Shown here piece by piece: positions 4,101-59,376 of a DNA stretch of 64,000 nucleotides (position 1 is the stretch's first letter; each line of letters begins with the position of its first letter). The position numbers were made by a program, and so were the translations under genes. Source of the DNA: Bacteroidota bacterium (GTDB lineage: Bacteria; Bacteroidota; Bacteroidia; Bacteroidales; SKPS01). The stretch is from positions 62,001 to 126,000 of the forward strand of contig JAKLII010000010.1 in the NCBI GenBank assembly GCA_022709695.1, in the 5' to 3' direction. The notes below the pieces were generated by a model, which saw nothing but the letters and a program-made list of their open reading frames with translations, had not been told where the DNA came from and did no database searches.

Positions 4101-4388
4101 ATGCATCCGCTCACAGCCCGAATCCTGGAATTGGAAGCCGGAATCCTAAGGCTGACAGAAGCAAACCGGAAGTTGCGGAAGCAACTGGAGATGATGCAGG
4201 AAAAGTGCGAAAGCCAGCTTTCGCAGGTACCGGAAGCCGGTGGGGAGGAGAAAAATACAGAGGATACAATACTAACCTATAAACCTGAAACGTTCATTCA
4301 ACATAAAGAAGAACAGATACAAACAAAGCAAATTATTAACGAGATGATGCGGGAGATAGACAGATGCTTGTTGTTGTTGGAAAAATAG
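4101..4388 (+). CDS. Small coiled-coil protein upstream of ZapA
   Basis: A 95-residue protein with an N-terminal heptad pattern (LTARILELEAGILRLTEANRKLRKQL, quoted in part: LELEAGILRLTEANRKL) giving a coiled coil over about residues 5-38, a polar linker, and a second helical stretch near the C-terminus (residues 65-95). It ends 21 bases before zapA and shares its promoter. A short coiled-coil partner just upstream of zapA recurs in Bacteroidota; by analogy with ZapB it could help organise the division ring, but the sequence is too simple to prove this. An overlapping frame starting at 4094 is open too but lacks any structured pattern. Confidence 0.7.
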   Translation: MHPLTARILELEAGILRLTEANRKLRKQLEMMQEKCESQLSQVPEAGGEEKNTEDTILTYKPETFIQHKEEQIQTKQIINEMMREIDRCLLLLEK

Positions 4389-4409: not shown

Positions 4410-4700
4410 ATGGATGAAATCCCGATAGCTATACACATTGCAGGAAGGCAGTACAGATTAAGAGCAGATGAGCAGGAGAAAGAACAGATAGAAGAAGCGG
4501 CAAGGCGTATCAACAGATCCATCAGATTGCATGCAGAGCATTTTGCTTACAAGGACAATCAGGATCTGCTGGCGATGGTAAGTCTGCAGCAAACACTGGC
4601 GATTGTGCAATGTGAACATACCCTGGATGGGGTTGAGCGCAGAACAGAGCTTCTGTTTTCAGAAGCCTGTGAACCGGAGAAAGAAGATGACAACGCATAG
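4410..4700 (+). CDS. zapA: Cell division protein ZapA
   Basis: A 96-residue ZapA-family protein. ZapA binds FtsZ and cross-links protofilaments at the division site. The N-terminal beta-strand segment IPIAIHIAGRQYRLRADEQEKEQIEEAARRINRSI (positions about 4-38; characteristic pieces GRQYRLRADEQE and AARRIN) and the following long helix (LAMVSLQQTLAIVQCE) match the family, and the length is standard. It follows the coiled-coil gene by 21 bases and precedes a structured intergenic RNA and rny. In proteobacteria zapA is classically followed by the 6S RNA gene, which makes the RNA downstream more interesting. Confidence 0.85.
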   Translation: MDEIPIAIHIAGRQYRLRADEQEKEQIEEAARRINRSIRLHAEHFAYKDNQDLLAMVSLQQTLAIVQCEHTLDGVERRTELLFSEACEPEKEDDNA

Positions 4701-4766
4701 TACGTTCTTTGAAAGATATTTACCCGCGATAATTCAATACAGTTTATAAACTCAACAGTATAAACA

Positions 4767-4867
4767 TTAGAGGAAAGCTCAGTCGTGCCGATGGAAGGCC
4801 TCAACCGTGCATGCACGGATTCACCTGAGGGTGGACAGTGGACTCCAAAGGATGAAGGCTCCTCTAA
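4767..4867 (+). ncRNA. Structured RNA candidate between zapA and rny (possible 6S-like RNA)
   Basis: The 254-base zapA-rny gap holds a long-range closing helix: TTAGAGGA at 4767-4774 pairs perfectly with TCCTCTAA at 4860-4867. Inside are a hairpin CCGTG-CATG-CACGG (4805-4818) and a hairpin CACC-TGAG-GGTG (4822-4833). A T-run at 4914-4922 follows a weak stem and could end the transcript. A TTTG (4708-4711) with 18 bases to TAATTCAA (4730-4737) is a weak upstream promoter. A closed rod with internal bulges beside zapA is what a 6S RNA would look like, but I could not match a covariance model. A leader element of rny is the alternative. Confidence 0.5.
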
Positions 4868-4954
4868 GCTGATTAATTGGGGTTTATTAAGACTCCGGAA
4901 TTATTCGCGGGTATTTTTTTTTCTCTCGCTCCATCATAACAAAATGGAGGACAA

Positions 4955-6496
4955 ATGAATACACTATGGATTGTAATTGCCCTGCTGGGGGGACTGGCAG
5001 GAGGTGGAATATCAACGGCGACCTTTCTGCGGAAGTCGGCGTTAAAGAAGAGCAAACAGATACTGAAGGAGGCCCATGCTGAGGCAGAGGTACTGAAAAA
5101 AGACAAGATACTGGAGGCCAGGGAGAAATTCCTGCAGATGAAGTCGGAGCACGACCAGTATGTAAACGAGAAGAACCTGGCAATTCAGCAGAACGAGGCA
5201 AGGCTGAAACAGAAAGAAGCCGGTTTGAACCTGCGCATCGAGGAGCTGGCGAAGAAACAGAAGGAGATCACTACCGTAAGGGAGAACCTGAACAATCAGC
5301 TTGAAGTGATTGACAAACGCCAGGCTGACCTCGAGAAACTGCACAAGCAGCAGGTGGTACAGCTGGAAACCATCAGCGGGTTGTCGGCCCAGGAGGCGAA
5401 GCAGCAGCTGGTGGATGCCCTCCAGGGTGAAGCGAAGTCGGAAGCTTCGGTACAGATCCGTGAGATCCTGGAAGAGGCCAAGATGACGGCCAACCGTGAG
5501 GCCAAGAAGATTGTAATTGAAACCATCCAGCGTACGGCTACCGAGCATGCGATCGAGAATTCGGTTTCGGTATTCAACATCGAGAACGATGAGATCAAAG
5601 GGCGTGTGATCGGGCGTGAAGGGCGTAATATCCGTGCCCTGGAGGCGGCCACGGGCATCGAGATCATAGTGGACGACACCCCCGAAGCCATCATCCTGTC
5701 GGGTTTTGATCCGGTACGCAGGGAGATTGCCCGGCTTTCGCTGCACAAACTGGTAACCGACGGCCGTATCCATCCGGCCAGGATCGAAGAGGTAGTGGCA
5801 AAGACCAAAAAGCTGGTGGAGCAGGAGATCATTGAGGCCGGCAAGCGTGCCACCATCGATCTGGGCATCCACAACATGCACCACGAGCTGATCAGGATGG
5901 TAGGGCGGATGAAGTACCGTTCCTCTTATGGCCAGAACCTTTTGCAACACTCGAAGGAGGTGGCCCGCCTCTGCGCCACCATGGCCGCGGAGCTGGGACT
6001 CAATCCCAAGCTTGCCAAGCGGGCAGGGCTGCTGCACGACATCGGCAAGGTGCCCGACAACGAGCCGGAGCTGCCGCACGCACTGCTGGGAATGAAACTG
6101 GCAGAGAAGTTCAAGGAGCATCCTGAAGTGTGCAATGCCATCGGTTCTCACCACGAAGAGGTGGAGATGAACACCCTACTGGCGCCGATTGTACAGGTAT
6201 GTGATGCCATTTCTGGGGCACGTCCGGGGGCACGGCGCGAGGTGGTGGAAGCCTATATCAACCGCCTGAAACAGCTCGAGGAACTGGCCATGCAGCACCC
6301 CGGGGTGGTAAAGACCTACGCCATCCAGGCCGGACGTGAACTGCGCGTAATCGTGGGTGCCGAAAAGGTATCGGACGACGAGGCTGCTTCGATCTCCTTG
6401 GATCTCTCGAAGAAGATCCAGGAAGAGATGACCTACCCGGGGCAGATCAAGATCACCGTGATCCGTGAAACACGGGCGGTGGCGTATGCGAAATAG
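4955..6496 (+). CDS. rny: Ribonuclease Y
   Basis: A 513-residue membrane-anchored endoribonuclease that starts turnover of many mRNAs. Order of parts: an N-terminal transmembrane helix (residues 4-25), a long charged coiled coil (about 27-190), a KH RNA-binding domain (about 206-266, with [15 protein letters not shown]) and an HD phosphohydrolase domain whose metal ligands are H361-D362 in LLHDIGKV. The length is that of the family. Unusually for this phylum the ATG is preceded by a good Shine-Dalgarno sequence (GGAGG at 4946-4950, 4 bases spacing). It lies downstream of zapA and the structured RNA candidate, and ends 3 bases from the convergent hydF stop, with no room for a separate terminator. 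Confidence 0.97.
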
Positions 6497-59137: not shown

Positions 59138-59221
59138 GCCCAGGTGGCGGAAATGGTAGACGCGCATGGTTGAGGGCCATGTTCTCGCAAGGGAGTGCAA
59201 GTTCGATTCTTGTCCTGGGCA
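59138..59221 (+). tRNA. tRNA-Leu (anticodon GAG)
   Basis: An 84-base class II tRNA with acceptor GCCCAGG/CCTGGGC and discriminator A. The anticodon stem CATGG/CCATG encloses loop TTGAGGG, giving anticodon GAG (reads CUC and CUU). A variable arm follows and the T loop GTTCGATTC is standard. CCA is not encoded, so the Cca enzyme in this window is needed. Confidence 0.95.
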
Positions 59222-59251
59222 CTGCAACATCAACACATCATTCGACAAAAT

Positions 59252-59335
59252 GCCCAGATGGCGGAATTGGTAGACGCGCTAGTTTCAGGGACTAGTGTTC
59301 GCAAGGACGTGCAGGTTCGAGTCCTGTTCTGGGCA
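59252..59335 (+). tRNA. tRNA-Leu (anticodon CAG)
   Basis: An 84-base class II tRNA, acceptor GCCCAGA/TCTGGGC and discriminator A. The anticodon stem CTAGT/ACTAG encloses loop TTCAGGG, giving CAG (reads CUG). Its body is very like the preceding tRNA-Leu (30 bases apart), suggesting a tandem duplication followed by anticodon change. CCA is not encoded. Confidence 0.95.
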
Positions 59336-59376
59336 CAAAAAAGGAGGGTTTTCATCAGAAAGCCCTCCTTTTATCT
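59336..59376. terminator. Bidirectional terminator after the tRNA pair
   Basis: AAGGAGGG (59341-59348) and CCCTCCTT (59363-59370) form an 8-base-pair stem. T-rich sequence follows on the plus strand and an A-run precedes it, which becomes a T-run on the minus strand. It can end both the tRNA transcript and the convergent beta-helix gene, whose stop lies at 59393. Confidence 0.85.

Follow-up and report, generated by a model that had tools for sequence, protein, structure and literature searches.

The question raised by this locus is what is encoded in the 254-nt gap between zapA and rny, two genes that follow a coiled-coil open reading frame on the plus strand of a stretch of Bacteroidota DNA of 64,000 nucleotides (the window). 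A sequence-only reading had placed a structured RNA in this gap and offered two interpretations for it, a 6S-like RNA or a leader element controlling rny. 6S RNA blocks RNA polymerase in resting cells and represents a global brake on transcription. The names that had been given to the two flanking genes proved to be correct (Table 1). The gap harbors a structured RNA of about 195 nt that is conserved and shows covariation; it is homologous to the 6S-Flavo and Bacteroidales-1 families and independent of rny. With a probability of roughly 0.9, we regard it as the 6S RNA gene of this organism, situated in its original place and diverged beyond the Rfam thresholds.

The structural elements reported in the sequence-only reading are present in the DNA, i.e., the perfect 8-bp helix formed by 4767-4774 and 4860-4867, the two hairpins enclosed by it (4805-4818 and 4820-4835) and the T-run before rny at 4914-4923. 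Taken alone, the segment 4767-4867 is unremarkable with regard to folding (z -1.43; 19/200 shuffles were as good). The 8-bp helix belongs to the terminal part of an RNA that measures about 195 nt in total (4721-4913 and the T-run), and the full-length fold (4721-4915) is exceptional (z -4.83, 0/200 shuffles; z -4.47 for a slightly longer stretch). This RNA is composed of a closing helix of about 15 bp, a two-stranded central region, and the previously noticed rod as its terminal stem; it shows the architecture of the 6S class, in which a central bubble is placed between a closing and a terminal stem within about 160-200 nt. At the 3' end, GCGGG and the T-run are kept in the alignment of homologues. 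A scan for sigma-70-type promoters, which does not cover Bacteroidota promoters, revealed nothing above chance.

Table 1. Features of the zapA-rny region, in window coordinates
Feature	Position	Strand	Basis
Coiled-coil ORF, 95 aa, in zapB position before zapA	4101..4388	+	ORF list
zapA, cell division protein	4410..4700	+	Pfam PF05164, E 6e-12, above cut-off
boxA-like element GTTCTTTGAAA, between zapA stop codon and RNA	4704..4714 (contig 66704-66714)	+	motif; putative function
6S-like RNA gene, closing helix to T-run end	4721..4923	+	R1 and R2 matches 4720-4918; fold z -4.83
P1 closing helix, 5' arm UACCCGCGAUAAUUC, pairs with 4898-4913	4721..4735	+	fold; double changes in 6/13 counted pairs
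Hb 5' arm AAACUC, pairs with 4880-4885; proposed downstream duplex	4748..4753	+	covariation, n=36
Central bubble, 5' strand, proposed	4754..4766	+	between Hb and P2 with Hb enforced; putative assignment
P2 5' arm (8-bp helix of the sequence-only reading), pairs with 4860-4867	4767..4774	+	fold, covariation
P5 5' arm UGGA, pairs with UCCA 4844-4847	4792..4795	+	covariation, n=36
P6 5' arm CCUC, pairs with GUGG 4838-4841 around conserved U-U	4799..4802	+	alignment columns
Two apical hairpins (4805-4818, 4820-4835)	4805..4835	+	fold
Central bubble, 3' strand, proposed	4868..4879	+	between P2 and Hb; putative assignment
Hc hairpin, 4879-4885 with 4890-4896, excludes Hb	4879..4896	+	87.6% of cells paired, n=36
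P1 3' arm, then T-run, terminator-like end	4898..4923	+	sequence; fold
rny, RNase Y	4955..6496	+	TIGR03319, 647 bits, above cut-off

Relatives of the locus were fetched via the rny gene, which yielded 80 loci, and they were searched with R1, a covariance model built from the alignment A1 of zapA-rny RNAs only, the window RNA being part of the training set. In 74 of these loci, R1 matches immediately in front of rny (E <=1e-10). The six remaining ones comprise one locus without sequence before rny (L037), four loci with short gaps of 96-145 nt (L082, L088, L089, L092) and one with a weak R1 match of only 17.8 bits (L093). The closest relative is from the same genus, and its record is titled as a Lentimicrobiaceae MAG (L014). 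DNA similarity alone, which had also been tried as homologue search, found 10 of 60 relatives and was replaced by synteny and covariance models. Three of the records carry the titles Alphaproteobacteria, Ruminococcus flavefaciens and Chlorobiota (L029, L062 and L075, respectively) and contain a Bacteroidales-type rny together with the 6S-like RNA; these titles are probably wrong.

The conservation of the structure was analyzed in A1, which comprises 36 syntenic zapA-rny RNAs; the helices P1-P6 and the 3' hairpin Hc were picked manually in its columns. From the 48 sequences aligned, 12 divergent or odd ones were kept out of A1 and served as tests; L093 and L057 had been left out before the 48-sequence alignment, and L001, L011 and L014 were omitted as duplicates. 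RNAalifold applied to a plain MAFFT alignment of the 48 sequences gave weak structure only and was replaced by the hand-defined helices, and the apical hairpins, which MAFFT misaligns, did not enter the count. In A1, 88.0% of the cells are paired and double changes occur in 23 of the 41 pairs, amounting to 116 double-change cells compared to a mean of 36.6 after shuffling; the observed values were reached by 0/500 shuffles. When the partners were slid by 1-3 columns as a control, pairing was 31-53%. The covariation count leans towards the helices, because they were chosen on the same sequences; however, the slid controls and the independent model recoveries described below guard against this bias. 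P5 is the clearest helix, with 99.3% of cells paired and double changes in 3 of 4 pairs (n=36); it reads UGGA/UCCA here, and G-C, A-U and U-A interchange elsewhere. Six pairs were counted in P2, of which 86% of cells are paired and three show double changes. The sequence-only reading had named the joint absence of a model hit and of covariation as speaking against its proposal; a hit above an Rfam threshold is indeed absent, but covariation is present.

The comparison with Rfam models, which the same reading had suggested as a check, yielded a hit below the threshold only. RF01693 (Bacteroidales-1) aligns in full length (1-179, i.e., all 179 model positions) to the window RNA with Hb kept, and scores 19.3 bits at a cut-off of 60 (E 0.32 in a 351-base search). 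The locus is the best RF01693 place in its own genome, and the match alone proves nothing because its E-value amounts to 0.75 there. Neither RF00013 (6S) nor RF01685 (6S-Flavo, cut-off 85 bits) matches the RNA region up to E 10, and RF01685 has no match in the own genome. At the gathering threshold, Rfam finds two tRNAs only in the whole window. A tandem pair of tRNA-Leu genes with the anticodons GAG and CAG is situated at window positions 59138-59336.

The window RNA is located outside RF01693 and RF01685 as thresholded, yet it is homologous to RF01693, which became apparent from the use of two independently built models. Among 296 genomes of the phylum, R1 matched 108 at E <=0.01, and RF01685 matched 36; all of these 36 RF01685 places are contained in R1 matches of the same strand (36/36, compared by eye). 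When 29 R1 loci outside the own genome were fetched, rny was found within the 1.5-kb flanks in 26 cases (zapA and rny in 18, rny alone in 8, neither in 3). Moreover, R1 recovers the strong RF01693 place on the same strand in 27 of 30 loci and misses it in L102, L119 and L122. The weaker links between R1 and RF01693 rest on place and strand and not on bits, because R1 also assigns up to 34 bits to the antisense strand of genuine members. Conversely, the model R2 was built from 13 flavobacterial 6S-Flavo loci alone. It finds the window RNA end to end (4720-4918, 37.4 bits, E 5e-6 over 308 kb), and it matches 32/32 zapA-rny sources including the window as well as 30/30 strong RF01693 places. The 36 common places and the R2 match of the window RNA demonstrate homology to a curated 6S family. 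RF01685 has the same locus, and P1, the AAACUCAAC strand and Hb are common to both RNAs, whereas the Rfam model is restricted to 108 inner positions without the closing stem. From the reciprocal recovery by R1 and R2 it follows that the zapA-rny RNA, 6S-Flavo and Bacteroidales-1 are one family. Judged from these models, a single 6S family spans the Bacteroidota.

Members of this family are found both at zapA-rny and away from it. In 198 Bacteroidales genomes, RF01693 matched 63 at E <=0.1, and 35 of these matches are above the cut-off. None of the above-cut-off copies is situated at zapA-rny (0/35), since 30 of the loci are without zapA and rny and the other five genomes have rny on another contig or far away. 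Among the 28 matches below the cut-off, 22 are directly upstream of rny, the exceptions being G180, G077, G073, G176, G091 and G111. Hence, the Rfam cut-off of Bacteroidales-1 separates relocated from ancestral copies. In the 30 genomes whose relocated copies are strongest, rny still follows an ORF in zapA position, and the median of the zapA-rny gap is 102.5 nt compared to 277.5 nt in the loci fetched via rny (measured in 78 of 80). Two loci from genomes with a relocated copy (L127 and L134) show a gap of 211 and 214 nt before rny without R1 match, which may represent the degenerated former RNA gene. The presence of the RNA at zapA-rny in Bacteroidales as well as in Flavobacteria suggests that this is the original place in the phylum. 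R1 matches 152 of the 198 Bacteroidales genomes compared to 35 above the RF01693 cut-off, and both models together cover 178 (hand count from the two lists). The 6S RNA is unannotated in much of the Bacteroidales because Rfam knows only two derived ends of the family. The window RNA is almost certainly a 6S RNA, and thereby of an ordinary kind, but its form is ancestral and has gone unannotated; current RNA databases miss it in most relatives.

Three other explanations were considered. The unremarkable folding of the short segment 4767-4867 could point to a chance fold or a feature at the DNA level without any RNA gene, an explanation that is refuted by the covariation (0/500 shuffles) and the phylum-wide conservation and has a negligible probability. 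A leader acting in cis on the rny mRNA, e.g., in an autoregulation of RNase Y, would read into rny and be unrelated to RNA polymerase. The RNA precedes rny by about 30 nt, has the same orientation and occupies the zapA-rny gap in 74/80 fetched loci, as expected for such a leader; however, its closing helix ends in a T-run, and the above-cut-off Bacteroidales-1 homologues are away from rny in 35/35 genomes, in which rny is retained. It is mainly this relocation of the RNA without rny that argues against a leader function, and the second interpretation of the sequence-only reading found no support; we regard it as very unlikely.

It has also to be considered that the 6S-Flavo/Bacteroidales-1 RNA might be a regulatory small RNA that does not act as 6S, which would mean that the Rfam label is wrong for the Bacteroidales branch. 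The 6S RNA of Bacteroides thetaiotaomicron may be the RF01693 RNA, as suggested by Rfam, where the entry reads '6S-Bacteroidales RNA suggested'. The function of Bacteroidales-1 is left open by Weinberg et al. 2010 (PMC2864571), which would fit such a small RNA, as does the cautious wording of the Rfam entry; the same paper names 6S-Flavo as performing the function of the validated class. Against this explanation, the present analysis unites 6S-Flavo and RF01693 in one family, and Flavobacterium psychrophilum has been reported to contain 6S RNA (PMC9723704), B. thetaiotaomicron 6S RNA together with two classes of pRNA (PMC7366714). The overall layout of the RNA and its alternative helices Hb and Hc are also in line with the 6S cycle, and a small RNA of another function is highly improbable.

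The 6S-like interpretation of the sequence-only reading is supported by the two-way homology to 6S-Flavo and Bacteroidales-1, the stem-bubble-stem layout and a position at zapA as known for ssrS of E. coli. The RNA resembles the E. coli 6S RNA (ssrS, RF00013) in size, in the succession of closing stem, bubble and terminal stem, and in its place directly after zapA; it differs in the following gene, which is fau in E. coli and rny here. The E. coli ssrS region is matched neither by R1 nor by R2, the best R1 score being 14.6 bits, and this place near ssrS turned out to be an unrelated terminator-like stem. Because ssrS remains unmatched by R1, the link to the proteobacterial 6S RNA rests on architecture and synteny. 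According to the literature on beta- and gamma-proteobacteria, the 6S gene invariably stands behind zapA, the order being zapB-zapA-ssrS (PMC7641849). The small ORF in front of zapA in the window is not matched by the ZapB model of Pfam, and coiled-coil models match it below threshold only. Similar small ORFs precede zapA in the inspected loci of relatives. The ORF is zapB-like in place and coiled-coil character despite the missing ZapB match. A 6S RNA is in this way linked to zapA in two phyla.

The two helices Hb and Hc provide hints on how the RNA could work. Hb, in which AAACUC pairs with GGGUUU, is formed in 99.5% of the cells of A1 (n=36); three of its six pairs show double changes, and 0/500 shuffles reached its pairing or its covariation score; the count of further pair types is within the shuffled range (393/500). 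A second alignment, A2, was fitted to R1, which lacks Hb, and 6 of its 94 rows were removed as antisense before counting. In A2, each of the six Hb pairs is formed in 45-46 of 46 zapA-rny RNAs, in 18-21 relocated copies (of 19-21 with letters) and in 15-20 other Bacteroidota copies (of 20-21). Judged on an alignment not fitted to it, Hb is kept across the phylum. Hb and Hc are mutually exclusive because both use GGGUUU. Both are nearly equal in the window RNA, with pair probabilities of 0.49 for Hb and 0.51 for Hc and predicted energies of -66.9 kcal/mol with Hb enforced compared to -67.0 kcal/mol for the free fold; if the 5' strand is blocked, as it would be by a pRNA, Hc remains in the predicted fold.

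The existence of two mutually exclusive, covarying helices suggests a pRNA-triggered release of the E. coli type. In gamma-proteobacterial 6S RNA, pRNA synthesis unwinds the downstream helix beside the bubble, a hairpin forms in the 3' strand and the polymerase is released, as described in the literature (PMC8876501). By analogy, the RNA of the window would bind the RNA polymerase holoenzyme as a mimic of an open promoter, and pRNA synthesis would start in the 5' strand of the bubble at about 4754-4766 and copy AAACUC. The pRNA would break the Hb duplex, whereupon the freed 3' strand GGGGUUU could fold with AAACUCC into Hc, and the formation of Hc would release the polymerase as published for the gamma-proteobacterial RNA. 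Hb would then occupy the place of the downstream helix, and Hc would correspond to the 3' hairpin that becomes possible only after Hb has opened. The E. coli hairpin arises when the 3' strand of the bubble pairs with that of the downstream helix (PMC8876501), whereas Hc would fold within the 3' strand below the bubble. This release mechanism may not be universal, because Hc is poorly kept in the relocated copies of A2, i.e., those above the RF01693 cut-off, by which they differ from the window RNA.

The region in front of the RNA contains a further conserved element. In rRNA operons, boxA protects the transcription of untranslated stretches. The sequence that follows the zapA stop codon in front of the RNA is a putative boxA, as judged from its letters and its placement. 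Its core GTTCTTTGA is found within 80 nt before the RNA as exact copy in 31 of 46 loci and with at most one mismatch in 39 of 46, compared to 0/46 for each of the controls (windows inside zapA and the reversed motif); two of the 48 loci were dropped since they lack 300 nt of upstream sequence. A boxA-like sequence is accordingly kept in place before this untranslated RNA. The same 9-mer GTTCTTTGA is situated about 100 nt before the 16S and about 46 nt before the 23S rRNA in the own genome and is in this way common to the upstream regions of both rRNAs and the 6S-like RNA. A genome-wide excess of the motif was not found (5 occurrences versus 8 for the reversed control), and only its placement is special. 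In flavobacteria, the match is looser, because the word at the corresponding place before the 6S RNA (ACGTTCTTTACA-like) differs from that at the rRNA (GTTCATTGACATATTG). The boxA-like sequence may protect the transcription of the untranslated RNA stretch in the same way as in rRNA operons and, if functional, it would couple the synthesis of 6S RNA to the apparatus by which rRNA is controlled.

The relocated copies are mostly without the boxA-like element, and a TAnnTTTG-like word is seen shortly upstream of many of them (L094-L123; by eye, uncounted). This word presumably corresponds to the -7 element motif, and the relocated copies look as if they had gained their own promoter. It is tempting to combine these observations in a wider, rather doubtful scenario: the order of zapA followed by 6S might predate the split of Bacteroidota and Proteobacteria, the Bacteroidota 6S RNA might be under rRNA-type boxA antitermination and share elongation control with rRNA, and the relocated lineages might have exchanged this control for a promoter of their own.

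Collectively, one model unites 6S-Flavo and Bacteroidales-1, reveals the original locus as well as the relocation, and offers a testable switch for the release of the polymerase. In our literature search, statements on the zapA-6S-rny order in Bacteroidota or on a boxA at 6S RNA were not found; Wehner 2014 and Barrick 2005 may discuss the synteny, and no priority is claimed. We likewise did not find it stated that one family with relocation occurs across the phylum, that the link to zapA is common with Proteobacteria, or that a boxA-like element stands in front of the RNA. Finally, two genomes of family f44, G044 (C85, C162) and G154 (C383, C197), show two strong R1 matches each, one at about 110-120 bits and one at 73 bits, which possibly represent a second 6S paralogue or contamination.
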